Source of the DNA: a virus
Length of the DNA: 22,043 nucleotides
Strand: one strand, 5' to 3'
IMG/VR virus record: IMGVR_UViG_3300045118_000337
Location: 1-22,043 of that record
In this document: positions 620 to 11,023 of the stretch, piece after piece
How positions within the stretch are numbered: the stretch's first letter is position 1
Layout: each line of letters begins with the position of its first letter
Notes under the pieces: model-generated
Told to the model about the DNA's origin: nothing
Seen by the model: the letters and a program-made list of their open reading frames with translations, nothing else
The model's database searches: none
Translations under genes and position numbers: made by a program

Positions 620-844
620 TTACTTATTTCTTCCCTTGATTAATGCCTGGGGATTGGCAGCAAAGAGACCATATTTTTGAACCTCTGCCAAACGCGACTC
701 ACTCCCTGGATGCCCAAGAGAATGTGAACCAAGAAAGCGATCAGAATCAGCTTCTCGGATAATCTGACTAGAATGATTATTAGATTCGGCTATAGGGATA
801 ACCCTGTTTCCCTTAACCACTTCTAGTCCATATTTTCTAGGCAT
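620..844 (-). CDS. Unrecognised 74-aa protein in the gp68 position
   Basis: I do not recognise this product. The ATG at 844 shares one base with the TGA of the upstream gene (TGATG), with GAAGAGG just before it, so translation is probably coupled; a GTG one codon earlier is also possible. The protein is polar, begins MPRKYGLEVVKGNRV and carries a central HSLGHPGSES stretch and a basic C-terminal end (KGRNK). It has no membrane segment or signal peptide. Its place between a gp67-like core gene and the gp21 protease is that of T4 gene 68 (prohead core), so a role in the prohead interior is reasonable by context only; no clear sequence match to gp68 is visible. Confidence 0.7.
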   Translation of the reverse strand: MPRKYGLEVVKGNRVIPIAESNNHSSQIIREADSDRFLGSHSLGHPGSESRLAEVQKYGLFAANPQALIKGRNK

Positions 845-1020
845 CACACCTCTTCCTCTATGGGCTCTATAGTATTATCCATATCTCCAATTAATTTATT
901 TTGTAGATATTCATCTCTTGCTGTTCTGATTTCTTGTTGTAATAGTTCCTTTGATGCTACATAATCATCGTCTTCAAACTTATCAATAGCAGCCTTAACA
1001 TTTTCCAAATTTATTGGCAT
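844..1020 (-). CDS. Small prohead core protein, gp67-like
   Basis: This is a 58-aa acidic, probably helical protein lying directly after the portal gene, where T4 has gene 67 (prohead core component). It begins MPINLENVKAAIDKF and continues DDDYVASKELLQQEI, the pattern of short core proteins: an N-terminal helix, an acidic patch, then a second helix ending in an acidic tail (EPIEEEV). The start was moved to the ATG at 1020 because a near-perfect AGGAGG (1027-1032) lies 6 bases before it and inside the longer open frame, which would begin MKKKRR. The assignment rests on position, size and composition more than on clear identity; a different small core or scaffold protein is possible. Confidence 0.72.
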   Translation of the reverse strand: MPINLENVKAAIDKFEDDDYVASKELLQQEIRTARDEYLQNKLIGDMDNTIEPIEEEV

Positions 1021-1026
1021 TAGATA

Positions 1027-1114: not shown

Positions 1115-3133
1115 TCATTCTTCTTCAGTGTTTTGCTCTTCGTATTCTCTCTCATAAGGTTGATCAGTTACACTTGAAAACCCCAGTTTTTTATCTTTCT
1201 TTAAGCCATTAGCATTCTCACGAATTTCTTCATCATCTAATTCTAAATATCTTTTCATCAGCCAAGATTTAGAAAATTCTGGATTATTAGATAATGCTAA
1301 ATAGTTAGAAAATTTTGATTCCCGAAGCAATTGTTGTTGTTTATCTTTATAGAAACTAGGTGGTGTCATAGTAATTTTAATTTTACTCTCATCCAAATCA
1401 AATTCTTTTTTAAGACCTTTAAATTCTAAATGTAGAAGAAACAACCTTTCAAACTCGTTGCAAAATCTATTTTGCTGTTTCTCTAGAAATGTTGCCCATT
1501 TTATTTCATCTCTAGCTATTTCACCAATGGGAGAACTTGCAAATAAAACGGTATTTTCTTGTCTTCCTTCAATTGCAGACACTCTACTCATAGGATACTT
1601 TAAGGCTTTATAAAGTTTTCGCATAAAATAATTAACATCGGCCAGTTCCGTAAAACCAGCAGGATTGCCGCCAACTGTACTTATATCTGAACCTCTGCCA
1701 TCTGATGAGTTTTTTACATAAACACCAGCTATGGTTAAAAAATTATGATTGATATCATCTACTTCAATACATCCAGTATCAATTGTATAGAGCATAGGAT
1801 GTACACTATTAACATATATTGGATGTAAATGTGCAGATAACTCTACATTTGCTTGAAGATGTTGGGCCTCACATTCAGTACCATCTTTTAAAATAAATCG
1901 GTGATCTGGTGTAGTAATATGATATTGTCCCGTTGAAAAAACAACTTTTACAATTTTAGTATTTTTTCTTGTGACCCCTGCCCATTTTATATCAGCGAAA
2001 TATGGTTTATTTGTACCAATATCTTTGCTAATAACTTGATTTATGTAGCCATTATTATATTCTTTTATTATTTTTGATAGTGTTTTTACTCCGCTTGTCG
2101 TAATAATTTCAGTATCCAAACTCAAACATGTAGGAAGAAAGAAATTATCCATTACACTAAGAACATCAGGTGTATTAGTTAATGTGCCGGTATCAGGATC
2201 GTAAGTTTGTTTTTTGGTCATTTTGTTTTTTACATCTTCAACAAATTTCATTGCTTTATCACGAGGCATCTGTCCGACATCTATTTTAAAAACAAATCTT
2301 TCGGGCGCTCGAACAATACGATAAATTATTACTGAAGTCTCAAGTAATTTTAATTGGTTGAAAGGAATTTTGGCTTTATCTAAAAACCCTTTAATGTCAA
2401 ATCTATTTCTACCAAACACACCATAATTTATTGCTCCAATTTGCTCGGGCTCAAATACAATAATATTTGGATCATTATTAGTTGCATTCAAATGTGGTTT
2501 TTTAACACCATCTTTTAAATATTGATAATATTTTAATATTTTTAATGTTTTTGGATCGTAAACAAAGTCAATAGTTTCACTAGGAAGCCTTTTTATGCCT
2601 ACTATTCCCTCTGCTTGTTTGTTTCTGTTTATTAATCTTTCATAATATACTCTACCGTCAATGAAATATGTCCGTAAAAAATCATCAATAATATTGTTAA
2701 TACCAATTTTTTTATAAAACAAATCTTCAAATTCTTGTAGTAAAATTTTGGTAGTATTTTCATTTTTTGATATTTCTTCATCGACAATTTTCAATTTTAA
2801 CGTACTGCCTTCTAAATCTTGTATTGTGCTTTCATTAACAGCATCATCAATTACGTCAGAAATTTCGGGCATTTCAGACATATTTCGATATTGATTCATC
2901 TTGTCAATTTCATCTTTAAATGTCTTGTTAATATAAGAATTGTAAAAAATATTAAAACTTGAAATTGATGTCGGACTAGGAAAACCCGCTGGAAACTCAT
3001 ATCCTTCACCAGCGGATGCTTTAATCGTTCTATCTGAAACAGCAGATTGTCCTTTTCTTTTAAAAGATTTTATATCTTCATTAAGAACATTGTTGCCTGT
3101 AAAGAAATTTACTATATTTCTAAATAATCCCAT
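1115..3133 (-). CDS. 20: Portal vertex protein (T4 gp20-like) interrupted by a mini-intein
   Basis: This encodes the dodecameric portal through which DNA is packaged and to which the tail attaches. The precursor is 672 aa; removal of the 140-aa intein (residues 336-475) leaves 532 aa, close to T4 gp20 (524 aa). Family landmarks include the N-terminal region around FPSPTSISSF, EISDVIDDAVNE, the APERFVFKIDVG strand, DVLSVMDNFFLP just before the insertion, GRGSDISTVGG just after it, and MTPPSFYKDKQ near the C terminus. The ATG at 3133 was chosen over a GTG four codons upstream because GAGGGGG precedes the ATG and nothing precedes the GTG. The GTG overlaps the PAAR stop, so the two genes are adjacent and probably coupled. 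The acidic C-terminal tail (EEQNTEEE) is typical of T4-like portals. Confidence 0.95.
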   Translation of the reverse strand: MGLFRNIVNFFTGNNVLNEDIKSFKRKGQSAVSDRTIKASAGEGYEFPAGFPSPTSISSFNIFYNSYINKTFKDEIDKMNQYRNMSEMPEISDVIDDAVNESTIQDLEGSTLKLKIVDEEISKNENTTKILLQEFEDLFYKKIGINNIIDDFLRTYFIDGRVYYERLINRNKQAEGIVGIKRLPSETIDFVYDPKTLKILKYYQYLKDGVKKPHLNATNNDPNIIVFEPEQIGAINYGVFGRNRFDIKGFLDKAKIPFNQLKLLETSVIIYRIVRAPERFVFKIDVGQMPRDKAMKFVEDVKNKMTKKQTYDPDTGTLTNTPDVLSVMDNFFLPTCLSLDTEIITTSGVKTLSKIIKEYNNGYINQVISKDIGTNKPYFADIKWAGVTRKNTKIVKVVFSTGQYHITTPDHRFILKDGTECEAQHLQANVELSAHLHPIYVNSVHPMLYTIDTGCIEVDDINHNFLTIAGVYVKNSSDGRGSDISTVGGNPAGFTELADVNYFMRKLYKALKYPMSRVSAIEGRQENTVLFASSPIGEIARDEIKWATFLEKQQNRFCNEFERLFLLHLEFKGLKKEFDLDESKIKITMTPPSFYKDKQQQLLRESKFSNYLALSNNPEFSKSWLMKRYLELDDEEIRENANGLKKDKKLGFSSVTDQPYEREYEEQNTEEE
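1709..2128 (-). other. Mini-intein coding region inside the portal gene
   Basis: This in-frame 420-base insert encodes a 140-aa protein-splicing element. Block A is CLSLDTEI with the nucleophile Cys1. Block B is ITTPDHRF with the T-x-x-H pair (Thr73, His76). Blocks F and G are DDINHNFLTIAGVYVKN followed by Ser as the first residue of the C-extein. No homing-endonuclease domain fits between blocks B and F (about 40 residues), so this is a mini-intein. The residue before the terminal Asn is Lys rather than the usual His. Joining the flanks gives LPTSSDGRG, which keeps the same spacing as LPRREGGRG of T4-type portals as I recall them; this supports the exact boundaries. Confidence 0.92.
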
Positions 3134-3139
3134 ATTCCC

Positions 3140-3143
3140 CCTC
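3140..3143 (-). promoter_or_regulatory. Shine-Dalgarno that decides the portal start
   Basis: On the minus strand GAGG (part of GAGGGGG) lies 6 bases before the ATG at 3133 and overlaps the alternative GTG start at 3145, so it can serve only the ATG. Confidence 0.6.
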
Positions 3144-3417
3144 ACGTTATTATAACTGTAAAATCACCCAATACTATTGGTTGTAAATAGTGTGGTGGAT
3201 ATACCCATTTACATACATCATTTATATCCCCTACACCACAAACCGGCAAACCATTAGCTAAAACTGAATATGATCCGGTAATAGCATTTCCACCATGAGA
3301 ATCTAATGAACTCATAGTCGCGACAGGCAAAAGATTAGAATATACCGTCGGTGAAAGGCTTGTTATAATAGATGCACCACAAGCTCTAATACTACTTATT
3401 CTTCCTATTGGTCTCAA
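3142..3417 (-). CDS. PAAR-domain tail spike tip protein
   Basis: This 91-aa protein fits the PAAR family, which caps the central spike of contractile tails and T6SS (T4 gp5.4 is the phage example) and folds into a sharp zinc-bound cone. The visible pattern is the two-fold PAAR repeat: SPTVYSN-x-LPVATMSSLDSHGG, then GSYSVLANGLPVCGVGD. Candidate metal ligands are Cys13, His41, Cys60, Cys69 and His76. The start is a TTG, with AAGAG a few bases upstream; no in-frame ATG occurs before the core of the domain, and starting there keeps the N-terminal strand RPIGRIS that the family needs. It overlaps the end of the 133-aa gene by 26 bases and abuts the portal gene. Confidence 0.82.
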   Translation of the reverse strand: MRPIGRISSIRACGASIITSLSPTVYSNLLPVATMSSLDSHGGNAITGSYSVLANGLPVCGVGDINDVCKWVYPPHYLQPIVLGDFTVIIT

Positions 3418-4752: not shown

Positions 4753-6311
4753 ATAGCCGGAATAGTAACTTGAAAAAATTCAGCACCAGACTGTCTTTGG
4801 GCACATAGAAAAGAAAGCTTTGTTGCACCATCAATATATAAAGTTGTAGCAATTTTTAACCCTACAACGGCCGTAGATTGAGCATATCTTAACCAAGCAA
4901 AAGGCTCCAAAACCCTATTTAACATATCGAATCTAGTAAATCTTTGTGTACCATTAATCACCAGATACATATATTTACCCTGTTCGGTTGCCGGAGCATA
5001 TGCTTCTGAGGTGCCTGTTGTAACAAGAATATTTGCCGATTGATTTCTATAAACAATATTATTTGTCCATGTTCCGGTTGCTGAAGCTGTTATATCTAAT
5101 AAATCTAATGTATTAACATTACCACCTCTAAAACTGAAAATATGTCCCCATCTTGCATTTCTTGCCGAATCTGGTTGTATTCCAAATGCTTGTTCTGAAG
5201 AACAACCTGCCCCCATATTAGCACCTCTTACCGCAAATGCCGTTGTTGACCAGGTATCGGCAACTAGTGCACCAATAGCATAAGGACAATATGTATATGT
5301 TGTTCCACCACCAGCGGTAAACAATAACATTAAATCTGAATTTTCAATAACATATTTTGCACCTACGGTTGGATTGGTGGACCAGTTTGGGGTAATTGAA
5401 TATACTGGGCTCGGACCAGCAGTATTACTAGAAATCAATCTACGTTGTCCAACTGCTTGTGGATTGGTAGCATCTTCTGTGATCCTGATAATAAAATTAC
5501 GATGTTCATTTACCAATAAACCAGCATCTCCTGCGGCCGCATGTCCAGTTAATGTACCAGCGGCTATTCCTGTGCTTGTAAGAAGGCCCCAAAACCCAGA
5601 ATAAAGTGACATATTATATGGAATATGCCCTGCATCTAACCCCACAATGGATGAATCTGTTCCTATAGTGGGAAGGTTTAAATAACCTAACGTAAGATAA
5701 CTATTAGTTGCAATATCATAGGCTTTCCATGTCCCAGAAGCAGCAGTAGATGCACTTAATAAATAAACTCGACCTGAAAGTATTTCATAAGTGCTACCAT
5801 TTGCAGGAACAAAACTTAAAGCGGAGTCTAAAATTAGTGTTGGGGTTGTACCGCCTGTATTTGCTACAATAAGCCGTTCTTCTGTTAGCCCAGAACCTCC
5901 AGCAGTATTTCCCATAATTCTTATTCTGAAACCTCGACCATCACCTCTATTAGCTAAATTATTAACCCCAACAGCAGCGGGTAACGCTGTGCTAAGAACA
6001 ATACTTGTCGTCGAACAACCTGCGGCAACCGTACCTCTGGGACCATGAGTAGGCATAAAATAAGCACAGGCACCTGCCCCAAATGTTCCTGCTAATGCCG
6101 GAGAAGTTAACGTGAACCATTCATCATTTTTTATACTATATGCATCAAGTAATACCGCTGACCTTAAATAATATAAATATGGATAACGGTCTTCATCATT
6201 TCTTAAATCGAATGCTAAAGCAGTGCCTGCTGCGGTGGCACCAGGAATATTTGCAAGCGGTCTCCATTCCGGAAGATCAATAATATTTTTAAAATTTAAT
6301 GTTGTTGCCAT
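4749..6311 (-). CDS. Beta-propeller-like virion protein with a duplicated inserted domain
   Basis: This 520-aa, Ala/Gly/Thr-rich protein has no Lys-rich or membrane regions and looks structural. Kelch-like blades are suggested by repeats of the form [YV]-x-[YL]-L... followed by a polar turn and an aromatic strand: residues 44-68 ending NDEWFTL, 181-207 (GTWKAYDIATNSYLTL), and 446-474 (TQRFTRFDMLNRVLEPF). Two similar inserted domains lie at about 127-185 (RGFRIRIMGNTAG ... STYEILSGRVYLLS) and 271-330 (RNFIIRITEDATN ... AKYVIENSDLMLLF), an internal duplication. The start at 6311 follows the gp4 stop without a gap. Context puts it with neck, tail or fibre components; I cannot say which. The propeller fold is an inference from pattern only. 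Confidence 0.8.
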   Translation of the reverse strand: MATTLNFKNIIDLPEWRPLANIPGATAAGTALAFDLRNDEDRYPYLYYLRSAVLLDAYSIKNDEWFTLTSPALAGTFGAGACAYFMPTHGPRGTVAAGCSTTSIVLSTALPAAVGVNNLANRGDGRGFRIRIMGNTAGGSGLTEERLIVANTGGTTPTLILDSALSFVPANGSTYEILSGRVYLLSASTAASGTWKAYDIATNSYLTLGYLNLPTIGTDSSIVGLDAGHIPYNMSLYSGFWGLLTSTGIAAGTLTGHAAAGDAGLLVNEHRNFIIRITEDATNPQAVGQRRLISSNTAGPSPVYSITPNWSTNPTVGAKYVIENSDLMLLFTAGGGTTYTYCPYAIGALVADTWSTTAFAVRGANMGAGCSSEQAFGIQPDSARNARWGHIFSFRGGNVNTLDLLDITASATGTWTNNIVYRNQSANILVTTGTSEAYAPATEQGKYMYLVINGTQRFTRFDMLNRVLEPFAWLRYAQSTAVVGLKIATTLYIDGATKLSFLCAQRQSGAEFFQVTIPAI

Positions 6312-6776
6312 TTATTTTAAACTTTCCTCTGTGATAATTTTAAATTCCATATTATATTTATTACAAAACAATAGTGCAGCATTCCATTTTGCAGAATTAA
6401 TCATATATTTTCTCTTTTCTAACAATAAAACATTTTTACTTCTACTTCTGTTTATTGTATTAATGACACCTTTTGGTGTTTCCTTTACAGGTTTTATTTC
6501 TATTATATAATTTAATTTTTTATTGTTCACATCCGTAGTTATAAAAAAATCTGGATAATAGTTTGCATACCGTTTTTTAATTGGATTCCAATATGGTATT
6601 GCAATGGTCTCACTAGACCATTTAACAATTTTAATTTCATTATCACACCATAAAGCAAATTTTAACTCTAAACCAGAACGCAATACAATAGGCACATTAC
6701 CATCATATTTTTCAAGATTCTTTGGCACAAACAACTTATGTTTAGTTGGATTATATACATGTCTCATGTAACCCAT
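6312..6776 (-). CDS. 4: Head completion protein, T4 gp4 (gp50/65)-like nuclease fold
   Basis: This 154-aa protein, close to the T4 gp4 length of about 150, acts late in head assembly, after packaging and before tail joining. The family has a TnsA/PD-(D/E)XK endonuclease fold. Visible landmarks are RSGLELKFALWCD at 33-45 (Glu37), the WSSE-x(4)-IPYWNP stretch at 53-65, YYPDFFI at 73-79 (Asp76) and YIIEIKPVKE at 90-99 (Glu93, Lys95). These give a complete E, D, E-x-K set, so the active site looks intact. The start overlaps the upstream stop as TAATG, with AAGGAAAA about 7 bases before it. The call is strong on motif and length. Confidence 0.92.
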   Translation of the reverse strand: MGYMRHVYNPTKHKLFVPKNLEKYDGNVPIVLRSGLELKFALWCDNEIKIVKWSSETIAIPYWNPIKKRYANYYPDFFITTDVNNKKLNYIIEIKPVKETPKGVINTINRSRSKNVLLLEKRKYMINSAKWNAALLFCNKYNMEFKIITEESLK

Positions 6777-7291
6777 TATTGTTTTCCTTGTCGTTCTCTC
6801 AATCCTAAAATATTAGATAAATTCATTTGTAATTTTCTTATTCCAGTCCAATATGCTATTCTAGCCTGTCTAGCAAAATCTTTATATAGGCTGCCAATAA
6901 CAACATTTTCAATATTTTTAAGGTCTATAGGCTTAATATTTTTAATATAATAACCCGGTCTATAAAAATATCTTCTTGTGGCAAATTGAATATCCGGCCA
7001 TCTTTTTTTAACTGTATCCCATGTTACTTTTACATTTTTAGTAGCATAAAGTTTTTCGAACCATTCTTTAACCAACCATTTTCTATAATTTCTTGAAACA
7101 TAATTAAGGTTCAAAGTTTGAATAAAATGCCACTCATGTTTTGTTCTCGGATGGTATCCAGATACACTATACAGATATATGGCTAAAGGTGAAGGATCAT
7201 GCTGATAGCCAATATACGAAAAATTATATACATGCCCGCTTTCGAAAAGCGTACCATGTAAACGATGTCGGAAACTAAATTTTAATGCCAT
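6776..7291 (-). CDS. Unrecognised basic 171-aa phage protein next to gp4
   Basis: This protein is basic and very rich in Tyr, Trp and His, with no signal peptide or membrane segment. Apparent motifs are YQHDPSPLAIYLYSVSGYHP at 29-48, HEWHFIQTLNLNYVSRNYRK at 52-71, a TWDTVKKRWP segment at 90-99, and RRYFYRPGYYIKN at 106-118. The pattern of a beta strand ending in D-P-x-P-L followed by a G-x-NLxY-like segment recurs in phage proteins I remember without an assigned function. It overlaps the upstream paralogue by 10 bases and the gp4-like gene by one, so it may serve head completion or DNA handling; that is inferred from position and charge only. Confidence 0.8.
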   Translation of the reverse strand: MALKFSFRHRLHGTLFESGHVYNFSYIGYQHDPSPLAIYLYSVSGYHPRTKHEWHFIQTLNLNYVSRNYRKWLVKEWFEKLYATKNVKVTWDTVKKRWPDIQFATRRYFYRPGYYIKNIKPIDLKNIENVVIGSLYKDFARQARIAYWTGIRKLQMNLSNILGLRERQGKQ

Positions 7292-7734
7292 TTTCTACTT
7301 CTAAACAACCGCAACATTTCTTTTGCAGCATATTTGGTGAAATATTTTTTACTCCAGTTATCGTTTTTCACATGTTCTATGATAATTTTCTCGATGTTTA
7401 TGGCATATTTTATTGTATCAGAATCAGTGATTTCAAGTTTCATATCTTTTAACACAGCTTCCCCCATAAAAAATTTTGCACTTTTAAAATCGTGATATCT
7501 AATTCCCTCTTTTTCTAAAAAGTTCTCAATTATGTCACTATGCAAAATTTTGAAATGCCAAACATAAACATTTTCATTTTCAAAATCAACTAAAAATCTG
7601 AAATGTGGTGCGTAAAATTGGAAGAATTCTTTTTTATAATCAAGGAGTTCCTTCTTTCCTGGATTTTTTAAAATTACAACTTCTTTTTGATATAAGCCAT
7701 AATATTCTTCGTATATGAATTTTAAAAATTTCAT
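7282..7734 (-). CDS. Leader-bearing paralogue family member 4 (150 aa)
   Basis: This is one of four related proteins in tandem. It begins MKFLKFIYEEYYG, the shared leader F-x-F-[IL]-x-E-E-Y, then has the family core: VVILKNPGKKELLDYK, RFLVDFENENVYVW and a conserved His in ILHSDII. The C-terminal part, with NDNWSKKYFTKYA, is shared closely with the neighbouring 7731-8207 gene but not with the two shorter copies. It is basic and soluble. The start overlaps the previous stop as ATGA. No known domain is recognised. The leader resembles those of T4 internal head proteins (MKTYQEFIAEA), so packaging in the capsid with trimming by the gp21-like protease is a testable inference, not an observation. 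Confidence 0.8.
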   Translation of the reverse strand: MKFLKFIYEEYYGLYQKEVVILKNPGKKELLDYKKEFFQFYAPHFRFLVDFENENVYVWHFKILHSDIIENFLEKEGIRYHDFKSAKFFMGEAVLKDMKLEITDSDTIKYAINIEKIIIEHVKNDNWSKKYFTKYAAKEMLRLFRSRKWH

Positions 7735-8207
7735 GCCTCTTTATAATTCCCGTTGATATAGTTTAGTGCCATCTTTAGCATCGTTTGGCCAGCAAAATCA
7801 TCAAAATATTTTTTTGACCAATTATCATTCGCAGCAATCAATTTAATGCCTTCAAATTCTTGAGGAGATATTGATACTGATGCTATCGACATTAATTGAT
7901 CAGAATAAGAAAGATGTATTCTATTTCCGTGTATTTTTCCTACTGCTGATAAAAAATTAATATTATTATTATATTTTACAAATTTGGATAATTTTGTTCT
8001 ACTTATAACTTGTGGATGTATTCCCCTAAGTCCGGTCCATACATAAACATCTTTCTTCTTAAAGTCAACAATAACTCTAACATAAGGGTGCTCTTTATTT
8101 AATTCGATAAGTTCTTTTAATGTTGGATTCTTGAATATCGTAATATCCTCAATATATTCAACATCAAAATATTCTTCATTTAAAAAATTATAGAATGTTT
8201 GCATCAT
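7731..8207 (-). CDS. Leader-bearing paralogue family member 3 (about 158 aa)
   Basis: This family member begins M(M)QTFYNFLNEEYFD, with the shared leader, then ITIFKNPTLKELIELN, VRVIVDFKKKDVYVW and a conserved His in GIHPQVI. The C-terminal ANDNWSKKYFDDFAGQTML pairs it with the 7282-7734 copy. The open frame extends to a TTG at 8222, but AGAG lies about 6 bases before the ATG at 8207, and this start (or the next ATG at 8204) aligns with the N termini of the other copies. The start overlaps the end of the 219-aa gene by about 20 bases. Function unknown; see the leader hypothesis in the findings. Confidence 0.8.
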   Translation of the reverse strand: MMQTFYNFLNEEYFDVEYIEDITIFKNPTLKELIELNKEHPYVRVIVDFKKKDVYVWTGLRGIHPQVISRTKLSKFVKYNNNINFLSAVGKIHGNRIHLSYSDQLMSIASVSISPQEFEGIKLIAANDNWSKKYFDDFAGQTMLKMALNYINGNYKEA

Positions 8208-8847
8208 AATATTCTCTATCAACTAAATAATATTGATCACAGTGTATAGCAATTTCAACAGAAGGGTCAACTTTGCTTAAATCGTTAACATTGTCTGTTT
8301 TATTGTAATTGCTAACAAAATATTTATTTAAAATTTCAGACATAATTTTTTCATAAGCTTTTCTTTCTTCTGGTTCCTGTCCATCTAAAAGTTTTATTAC
8401 AATATCGTCCCAAGTTTTTATATTGCGTTTATAATATGCAATCCAATTACAAAATTGATATTTGAATGTTCTATCTATCTCTAATGGAGGGTCTTTTTCA
8501 AAAGGACGCAGATTAGCATCTTCATATAAATCGCTAACAAAATTATTATAATAAAAGTAGTATTTTCCTATGGGAACAACTACTTTTCGCCACACCTCAT
8601 CCATTTTTCTACAAAAAACACATTCACTTCGTACTTTAACTTTGAATTTTTTATAAAATAAATCATTCAAAATGTTATGGATGTATAGCGGTATATCTCG
8701 TGGTTTTCTATCTTTTCTTGTGGTAACTTTAATAATATTTTCTTGTGTTGGAATACGTACACTTCGTGTTAAATAAATACTATTTTTGATAAAAGGTTTA
8801 GCGGCTTCTTTCAAATTTTCTTCTTCTAAATGTGTTTTTAATTTCAT
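8188..8847 (-). CDS. 219-aa protein with cleavable-looking leader, possible ADP-ribosyltransferase-like fold
   Basis: This protein is not a member of the four-copy family but lies in the middle of it. It opens MKLKTHLEEENLKEAAKP; residues 12-15 (L-K-E-A) match the T4 gp21 cleavage pattern L-x-E before Ala exactly. The body has TTRKDRKPRDIPLYIHNIL at 42-60, VKVRSECVF at 71-78, VVVPIGKYYFYY at 89-100, FVSDLYED at 103-110 and VEIAIHCDQYYLV at 197-209. This order (R-P-x-D..H, RSE-x-VF, P-x-G, DLY, final E-x-x-x-x-C..YY) resembles phage proteins I recall that look ART-like, but no catalytic triad can be proved here. Coupled by ATGA to the gene upstream, with GAGGG before its ATG. Confidence 0.8.
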   Translation of the reverse strand: MKLKTHLEEENLKEAAKPFIKNSIYLTRSVRIPTQENIIKVTTRKDRKPRDIPLYIHNILNDLFYKKFKVKVRSECVFCRKMDEVWRKVVVPIGKYYFYYNNFVSDLYEDANLRPFEKDPPLEIDRTFKYQFCNWIAYYKRNIKTWDDIVIKLLDGQEPEERKAYEKIMSEILNKYFVSNYNKTDNVNDLSKVDPSVEIAIHCDQYYLVDREYYDANIL

Positions 8848-9242
8848 TTGAAAACCCTCATATCATTGGAATATAACGCATCAATCAATAATTCTTTTCC
8901 TGGTGTTTTTAATATATTAACTAATTTTTTGAGCTTCTTGTCCGATGGTAATATATCTGATTCTAAAGATAGAACATCTCTTTCTATATCCATACTAAAA
9001 TATCCCCTCATAAGATTTTTCCCATTTAAACTATCTAAAGCATAATGATGTAATAAATTGCTACTAAACATATAGATAATATTATTATCCCAATCATATA
9101 ATGCTCTTAAAGTATTACTATAAGCATCTTTTTTTAATTTCTGAAGCTCTTTTTTGTTTGGATCAATAAAAATAGAATAATATCCTCCACCGAGTTTTAT
9201 TGAAGTAACATATTCTTCTTTAATAAAATTATAGAAATTCAT
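8844..9242 (-). CDS. Leader-bearing paralogue family member 2 (132 aa)
   Basis: This copy is the closest relative of the 9252-9650 gene: both are 132 aa and begin with the identical MNFYNFIKEEY, and by eye about half of all positions agree. The family core reads YYSIFIDPNKKELQKLKK, LRALYDWDNNIIYMF and SSNLLHHYAL; RGYFSMDIERDVLSLES follows. The acceptor of the common NP-x(3)-EL motif is DP here. It is soluble, with no membrane segment. Ten bases separate it from the upstream copy, and its TGA overlaps the ATG of the 219-aa gene. No known domain is recognised. Confidence 0.8.
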   Translation of the reverse strand: MNFYNFIKEEYVTSIKLGGGYYSIFIDPNKKELQKLKKDAYSNTLRALYDWDNNIIYMFSSNLLHHYALDSLNGKNLMRGYFSMDIERDVLSLESDILPSDKKLKKLVNILKTPGKELLIDALYSNDMRVFK

Positions 9243-9251
9243 AGATAATCT

Positions 9252-9650
9252 TTATTTAAAAAGCATCTTATCAACACTAGAACGTAATGTATTAATCATT
9301 AAATCTTTTCTTGGATTTTTTAATAATGTAGCCAATTTTTTAAGATTTTTATGTGTCGGTAACGGTGCATCAAAAGTTAAAACATCTCTTCCCATCTCTA
9401 TAGTAAAATAGCCTCTATTAAGATGTCCCCTTTTCAATGTTCGTATAACATAATCATGTAATAAATTGCTATTAAACATATAAATGTCGTTATTGCTCCG
9501 ATCATATAATATTCTAATAACTTTACCATAAGAAGTGTTTTTCAGTTTCTGTATTTCTCTAGTATCGGGATTAACAAAAACCTCATAATATTCTTTACCA
9601 TATGGTACTGAAATTTCATATTCTTCTTTAATAAAATTATAGAAATTCAT
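9252..9650 (-). CDS. Leader-bearing paralogue family member 1 (132 aa)
   Basis: This is the first of the four paralogues in transcription order. It begins MNFYNFIKEEYEISV, then YYEVFVNPDTREIQKLKN, IRILYDRSNNDIYMF, SNLLHDYVIRTL, RGYFTIEMGRDVLTF and a basic C-terminal helix (KNLKKLATLLKNPRKDL). The family pattern is F-x-NP-x(3)-E-[LI], then R-x-[LI]-x-D, then [VI]-Y-[VM]-[WF] and a His 5-8 residues later. The start shares one base with the upstream stop (TAATG). The product is probably basic and soluble, of unknown function. Confidence 0.8.
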   Translation of the reverse strand: MNFYNFIKEEYEISVPYGKEYYEVFVNPDTREIQKLKNTSYGKVIRILYDRSNNDIYMFNSNLLHDYVIRTLKRGHLNRGYFTIEMGRDVLTFDAPLPTHKNLKKLATLLKNPRKDLMINTLRSSVDKMLFK

Positions 9651-9925
9651 TATTTTTCTTCAAATGAGGCTGATACCTTTTCTTGCATTTTCTTGGCCCA
9701 AGAAGACAATTCAGGATAATCCTTTTTGTTCCACCGATAAAGATTCATTAAAGCTTTAACAATAGCATTTCTGCCTTTTTTCTTAGCTAAATTGATAAAA
9801 TGTGATGTCGGTAAATCTTGTACACTAATATCAACAGGAACTTCTAAAATTCCAGGATGTGTAACATTATCTGTCCATTTTTTCTTTTCTGTAAATAGTT
9901 TTATCTTTTTTAGAATATCAGCCAT
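9650..9925 (-). CDS. Conserved 91-aa phage protein of unknown function
   Basis: This small basic protein has a compact and highly patterned centre: WTDNVTHPGILEVPVD at 17-32, VQDLPTSHFINLAKKKGRNA at 35-54, IVKALMNLYRWNKKDYPELS at 55-74. The combination HPGILEVP, LPTSHF, LAKKKGR and ALMNLYRWN reads like a recurring phage family, but I know no function for it. The helix content and repeated Lys-rich turns would suit nucleic-acid or protein binding. It lacks the leader of the next five genes, so it may be their neighbour rather than a member of the same set. It begins 12 bases after the fibre gene, with CGGAAAA upstream. Confidence 0.78.
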   Translation of the reverse strand: MADILKKIKLFTEKKKWTDNVTHPGILEVPVDISVQDLPTSHFINLAKKKGRNAIVKALMNLYRWNKKDYPELSSWAKKMQEKVSASFEEK

Positions 9926-10681: not shown

Positions 10682-11023
10682 CTATAATGTATTTTCTTGA
10701 AGCCTTTGATATAAGGCATCCTTTATATCACTATGCTTTTTTTGTTTTCTTAAATGATTTAAAAATGCATTTTCACATATTTTAGTTACATATGCAAAAG
10801 CATTTGTTGTTTTTGTTGGATTAAAACTGCTCATTAAATATGAACATATAGTTAAAAGTGCATCACCAATCATATCATCTTTATATGTGTAACCGGCAAA
10901 ATTTCCCTTATCGGCATAATTATAGGCAATAGACATAACCATTTTACCTAATTCCTCAGAAAAAATTCCATTTTCTTGGCATTTAACTATTTCATTAAAC
11001 AAATCCTTATTATTTATATACAT
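10682..11023 (-). CDS. 55: Late-transcription sigma factor, T4 gp55-like, very short
   Basis: This is a 113-aa member of the gp55 family, the sigma subunit that directs host RNA polymerase to TATAAATA late promoters. It begins MYINNKDLFNEIVKCQE, similar to the VNNKELLQAI start of T4 gp55 as I recall it. The sigma-2-like core follows: NFAGYTYKDDMIGDALLTI at 41-59 and NAFAYVTKICENAFLNHLRK at 74-93. It ends at ENTL soon after the core, while T4 gp55 has 185 aa and a C-terminal clamp-binding tail, which is absent here. The gene lies between two fibre genes in the same orientation, one base after the upstream stop, with AGGA 5 bases before the ATG. Late expression of its own activator implies positive feedback. 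Confidence 0.88.
   Translation of the reverse strand: MYINNKDLFNEIVKCQENGIFSEELGKMVMSIAYNYADKGNFAGYTYKDDMIGDALLTICSYLMSSFNPTKTTNAFAYVTKICENAFLNHLRKQKKHSDIKDALYQRLQENTL

Follow-up and report, generated by a model that had tools for sequence, protein, structure and literature searches.

The stretch of DNA analysed here (the window) is a complete IMG/VR record of 22,043 bases and covers part of the genome of an uncultured T4-like myovirus. Encoded on its minus strand are gp5-, gp25- and gp6-like baseplate proteins, tail-fibre-like proteins, a late sigma factor resembling gp55, the intein-containing portal gp20, a gp21 protease and a spike protein of the PAAR type. Between the baseplate/tail-fibre genes and gp4, the same strand has a block of small genes that share a short N-terminal leader. 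Five consecutive minus-strand genes bear this leader (7282-7734, 7731-8204, 8188-8847, 8844-9242 and 9252-9650), and in coordinate order their starts read MKFLKFIYEE, MQTFYNFLNEE, MKLKTHLEEENLKEA, MNFYNFIKEE and MNFYNFIKEE. Reading all five starts bears out the original prediction of one leader type on five genes, and the [IL]-x-E said to lie in every leader is present within the first ten residues of each.

The genes at 9252-9650 and 8844-9242 encode 132-aa proteins (paralogs b and a), with the leader MNFYNFIKE at 9624-9650 and 9216-9242, respectively. Beside them lie the genes of a 219-aa protein of an ADP-ribosyltransferase-like family (8188-8847, leader MKLKTHLEE at 8821-8847), a 158-aa protein (7731-8204, 157 aa from its second Met, leader MQTFYNFLNE at 8175-8204) and a 150-aa protein (7282-7734, leader MKFLKFIYE at 7708-7734). 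The L-K-E before Ala that had been pointed out in the 219-aa protein is there as well, a second possible cut at residue 14 (LKE/A, the slash marking the cut here and below). All of the bodies are basic (pI 8.1-9.7). A 91-aa basic protein (9650-9925, minus strand) starts with a longer form of leader, MADILKKIKLFTE, at 9887-9925 and is tentatively regarded as a possible sixth member, the pattern for its longer leader having been picked after relatives had been seen. A presumed link between the 91-aa protein and a DUF3175-like protein in contig L130 failed.

Directly downstream of the leader array is a gp4-type head completion protein (6312-6776, minus strand). The gp21-type prohead core protease (Peptidase_S77) that the original prediction placed in the window is encoded at 2-418 on the minus strand (PF03420, E 6.9e-21), cut off at the window end, and its own N-terminus reads MLKLITE/T. 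A small protein between portal and protease (844-1023, minus strand) occupies the place of T4 gp67/gp68; it has a relative in contig L002 and no family match, and position makes it a candidate gp67/gp68-place gene. The portal protein, a T4 gp20 homolog (1115-3145, minus strand), contains a 140-aa intein (1709-2128) that is too small to hold a homing endonuclease and is absent from the L002 relative. Between the gp68-like gene and gp21, a 74-aa open reading frame (620-844, minus strand) resembles the gp21 start and GHP region, with an equal or better score in 6 of 500 shuffles, and may be a disrupted duplicate of the protease gene. The PAAR-motif spike protein gene (3142-3417, minus strand) adjoins the portal gene, and the gp55-like late sigma factor (10682-11023, minus strand) lies within the tail-fibre/baseplate block, an order repeated in L002. 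The T4 late-promoter-like TATAAATA was rejected as a signal, its frequency in the window being at chance level.

Paralogous bodies within the block

The shared leader was originally described as standing before bodies that differ. This holds for the 219-aa protein alone, whose body is unrelated to the others; the remaining four (132, 132, 158 and 150 aa) are paralogous over their full length. Compared after removal of the first 15 residues, the two 132-aa bodies match at E 5e-34 and the 158- and 150-aa bodies at E 1.5e-15, while most cross pairs fall between E 1e-4 and 1e-6 and the 158-aa body against 132a is weaker (1e-2). An alignment of five members of the family has P28, E32, R44, D48 and H64 invariant along the body. 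The window holds just two independent body families, and because four of the five genes are paralogs, the likeness of their leaders is explicable mostly by common descent, so that the argument first made for a targeting leader from the window itself is weak.

Common descent only, with a duplicated family retaining its N-terminus and the leader having no targeting role, would also account for the two 132-aa genes, whose leaders are identical at 33 of 33 nt over MNFYNFIKEEY. Identical codons stand at 41 of 56 identical body residues in this pair, and the comparison gives a mild hint of gene conversion between the two genes. The evidence against descent as the whole explanation lies in the 219-aa protein, where the same register precedes an unrelated body, and in the relatives considered below.

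Those relatives were obtained by portal-based and family-based scans. No relatives emerged when viral contigs were scanned with the paralog alignment, the 158-aa protein alone or the 219-aa protein alone, and megablast and tblastn against named phages found nothing for the paralogs. A paralog-profile match in Agrobacterium phage Atu_ph07 (E 0.016, with an internal stop) was dismissed as chance. An AlphaFold model of the 158-aa paralog, built from five sequences, was too poor for use (pLDDT 50); in this model and in that of the 219-aa protein alike, the leader forms a low-confidence, separate N-terminal stretch.

The register of the T4 capsid-targeting sequence

In T4, the first ten residues of IPIII are enough for targeting, residues 4 and 7 of the leader bearing on targeting and residues 8 and 10 on processing (PMC9026906). 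The T4 capsid-targeting sequence, MKTYQEFIAE, has an aromatic residue at positions 4 and 7, I or L at 8 and E at 10, and two T4 proteins do begin MKTYQEFIAEA, as originally stated. MQTFYNFLNE (7731-8204) has exactly this register. The register is one residue shorter in MNFYNFIKE (twice), MKFLKFIYE and MKLKTHLEE; in the last of these, that of the 219-aa protein, L3 and H6 occupy the two targeting positions.

A broad pattern for this register, Mx(1,2)[FYLIW]xx[FYHLMW][IL]xE, matches 5 of the 23 open reading frames in the window against 0.02 expected from internal positions, the five matches coming from two body families; its P value for the window is optimistic, since the residue sets were widened after the leaders had been seen. 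Elsewhere the pattern matches 4 of 134 open reading frames in G002, 5 of 103 in G006 (both relatives of the window phage) and 4 of 251 in T4, with expectations, the window included, of 0.02 to 0.4, and it has no match in the non-T4-like phage SPO1. The four T4 matches are IPII, IPIII, MAKINELLRES and one false match. We take MAKINELLRES to be gp24, presumably a gp21 substrate whose short propeptide is removed by gp21, and the false match to be RNase H.

When the residue sets are fixed by T4's own residues, one leader in the window matches in T4's exact register and three match one residue shorter, against an expectation of at most 0.004. The exact form of this strict pattern starts 7 of 15 genes in contig L132 and 5 of 9 in L134, where about 0.001 would be expected, and both contigs were retrieved by body similarity, independently of the leader. 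There was no clear excess of the pattern in the T4-like phages KVP40, S-CAM7 and Pelagibacter phage Mosig. Some leaders of Atu_ph07 and contig L126 match the looser [IL]xE form only, and a generic [ILM]xE rule was set aside as too loose, with a weak excess in most phages. Candidate cleavage sites of gp23 resemble the leader ends: FLTE/A in T4 and, with the exact cuts predicted from sequence, YLTE/T in G002 and SINE/A in G006.

The leader on unrelated bodies

The portal-based scan led to G001, with a portal segment 68% identical, and to G002, G004 and G006. In G001, a gene of the paralog family (MKFIGYLKEE) has the portal gene as its immediate neighbour on one side and the gp68-like and protease genes on the other. 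The proteins bearing the leader in G002, G004 and G006 are of several kinds: a carbon-nitrogen hydrolase, a P-loop kinase-like protein, proteins like HAD phosphatases, members of two ADP-ribosyltransferase-like families and a number of small proteins. G002 also has a longer leader type (MITEKIDEYLNE, MDTISKINKYINE and MTNIIEKIDTYLTE), like T4 MAKINELLRE, on several small proteins (53233-53930, 74547, 84266, 91458 and 91700); it gives 8 matches against 0.23 expected, for a pattern picked after seeing them. Near the tail-fibre region, G004 (16706-26313) and G006 (59539-69875) have clusters of CxxxCxxC proteins resembling radical-SAM enzymes; sugar-metabolism-like genes lie alongside.

The family-based evidence centres on the 219-aa protein. 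It and its relatives match phrog_11975 / phrog_15932 (E 1e-10 to 1e-34), and about ten copies each are found in Atu_ph07 and in Salicola phage SCTP-2. In Atu_ph07 the array spans 39.5-50.6 kb and contains bodies of two families, with M[RK]W[HEQDN][QD]L[TN]E at the start of nearly every gene. By count of annotated CDS this array is CDS 53-63, which falls inside a virion-protein-rich cluster, CDS 31-76; for that whole cluster, 29 proteins are reported as detected in virions by mass spectrometry (PMC6102473). In SCTP-2 (W02, 209-214 kb), tandem copies start MKINxLLxEN or MKVNDILKEN. Further arrays occur in IMG/VR contigs L126, L130, L131, L132 and L134. In these arrays nearly every gene has such a leader. 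Its wording differs between phage lineages while [IL]xE is kept, as SCTP-2 illustrates: L126 has MKLRDLFE-type leaders and MMTFKDFIAE, L130 has MRLIKYINE, and L132 and L134 have MITFKQFLNE-type leaders that are almost identical to those of T4. L130 also encodes a rubrerythrin/encapsulated-ferritin-like protein (4999-5331) with the start MKIIDRLNKYITEA, which may be head cargo in that phage, and an HD_4 hydrolase (1571-2113), presumably of the ppGpp-hydrolase type, with the leader-like start MRLEYQLLYEE.

The 219-aa protein has no sequence match to Alt or to any Pfam family. Its AlphaFold model (pLDDT 76, pTM 0.74) may resemble ADP-ribosyltransferases in fold: the whole-domain structural neighbours, all at low Z, are 2aua (Z 5.6, 124 aligned) and the OspC3/CopC ADP-riboxanases (Z 2.2-2.5), and Foldseek against the PDB gave no significant match (best E 0.09). 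The protein of 2aua, of unknown function, is taken here to belong to DUF2441, a family of the ADP-ribosyltransferase clan. Across 13 family members R28, R47, F78, P92, G94, D106 and E198 are invariant, and strand order suggests that the columns of R28, F-[AV]-[TS] and E198 form a catalytic R - S/T - E triad. The window copy reads VFCRK where its relatives read VFATG, and with the S/T of the middle motif absent its activity is doubtful.

The leader reaches well beyond these arrays. A back-translated form, MITFK[QE][FY]LxE, matched exactly against IMG/VR, gave at least 142 matches on at least 120 stretches. Among the matches listed, 137 of 142 have an in-frame stop no more than 40 codons upstream (median 9) and 133 begin open reading frames of at least 60 aa; the bodies behind them fall into at least 50 unrelated families. 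A gp21-type protease (PF03420) is encoded in 14 of the 14 source contigs of at least 100 kb that were tested. In the genes of L132, L134 and L126 the leader peptide is kept while its codons differ, which argues that selection acts on the peptide. Descent alone is poorly placed to explain the same register on so many unrelated bodies, or a peptide kept despite codon change, and appears quite unlikely as the full account. An effect on expression, through translation start, mRNA structure or a degradation signal, might be read into a leader that is always N-terminal, in genes that are AT-rich. The conservation across genes and phages is of amino-acid positions, not codons, and coincides with the targeting residues of T4, so a role in expression instead of localisation seems very improbable.

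The residue after the predicted cut is the main source of doubt. It is Glu in four of the five window leaders and Ala in T4, so that targeting without processing is possible; in T4 itself, targeting can survive a substitution at position 10 that abolishes processing (PMC9026906). The leader might then dock its protein, uncut, to the prohead or to another part of the virion such as the tail or baseplate. Gene position could be read the same way, since the window block lies between baseplate/tail-fibre genes and gp4 and the L126 array adjoins gp15 and an apparent tail-sheath gene. Against uncut docking, [IL]-x-E is retained throughout, the family member of L002 is placed directly between the portal gene and the gp68-like/protease genes, and Ala is the commonest residue after the predicted cut among the MITFK matches listed, with Glu second. 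On balance uncut docking is unlikely.

A probable T4-like targeting leader and its relation to known systems

The reading best supported is the one originally proposed, that the leader works as a capsid-targeting sequence like that of T4 internal proteins; we put its probability at roughly 0.8. The support comes from the match at the critical T4 positions, the unrelated bodies, the near-exact T4 leaders in the arrays, the conservation of the peptide and the presence of gp21 in every large contig tested. In the infected cell, the leader would bind the prohead core (scaffold), so that the attached protein is built into the prohead. The phage's own gp21-type protease would then cut the leader after [IL]-x-E, the basic body would remain in the head beside the DNA, and it would probably enter the next host together with that DNA. 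For the window, the cargo would comprise the family of four paralogs together with the single ADP-ribosyltransferase-like protein and, perhaps, the 91-aa protein. The further suggestion that these are injected effectors, with some action on the host, is plausible, given the possible ADP-ribosyltransferase-like fold of the 219-aa body and the precedent of T4 Alt, a packaged ADP-ribosyltransferase.

With rather less assurance, though still on the favourable side, we suggest that uncultured phages of the T4 superfamily use the leader generally as a cargo tag, exchanged in modular fashion onto dozens of unrelated proteins, such that a packaged and probably injected set could be listed from sequence. 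That proposal takes in ADP-ribosyltransferase-like proteins, zeta-toxin-like kinases, HAD and HD hydrolases, an amidoligase, a carbon-nitrogen hydrolase and ferritin-like proteins together. So far the T4 targeting leader has been described on few proteins, and the proteins that phages carry into their hosts have mostly been established in a few models. Were the leader a portable tag, one could predict from a simple rule of sequence which proteins thousands of uncultured phages package, name new candidate anti-defence and host-takeover proteins, and obtain additional leaders with which to load proteins into phage heads.

The closest known system is that of T4 IPI, IPII and IPIII and their capsid-targeting sequence (Mullaney and Black; PMC9026906), which share with the window genes an aromatic-xx-aromatic-[IL]-x-E leader, small basic bodies, a gp21 protease in the phage and the use of one leader on different bodies. 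The window leaders differ in being mostly one residue shorter and in having Glu, not Ala, after the cut in most cases; their bodies are unrelated to those of T4, and several tagged genes, predicted to encode packaged proteins, stand in one block. A longer-range comparison is offered by the head propeptides of phiKZ and SPN3US (PMC5694885), which are likewise N-terminal, end at an x-x-E site, are removed by a gp21-related protease and have been suggested to target the head; these are mostly over 100 residues with A-x-E, whereas the window leaders have about 10 residues with [IL]-x-E.

T4 Alt and other phage ADP-ribosyltransferases are packaged in the head, and their frequent packaging has been inferred from gene context (Iyer et al. 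2022, PMC9503650). The 219-aa family is like the Alt group in its ADP-ribosyltransferase-like fold neighbours, its candidate R ... E pattern and the position of its genes among late structural genes; it is unlike that group in having no sequence match to it, a window copy without the middle-motif S/T, and large lineage-specific arrays. For phrog_11975 and phrog_15932, with members in Atu_ph07 and SCTP-2, PHROGs holds no annotation of function or packaging and makes no mention of the leader. A review has proposed that T4-like phages use the leader to package a variety of proteins (PMC9026906), and we found no report of it on dozens of families in the open-access literature. The T4 capsid-targeting sequence and the head-packaged ADP-ribosyltransferases were already known, and what appears new is the extent of the leader over dozens of families.
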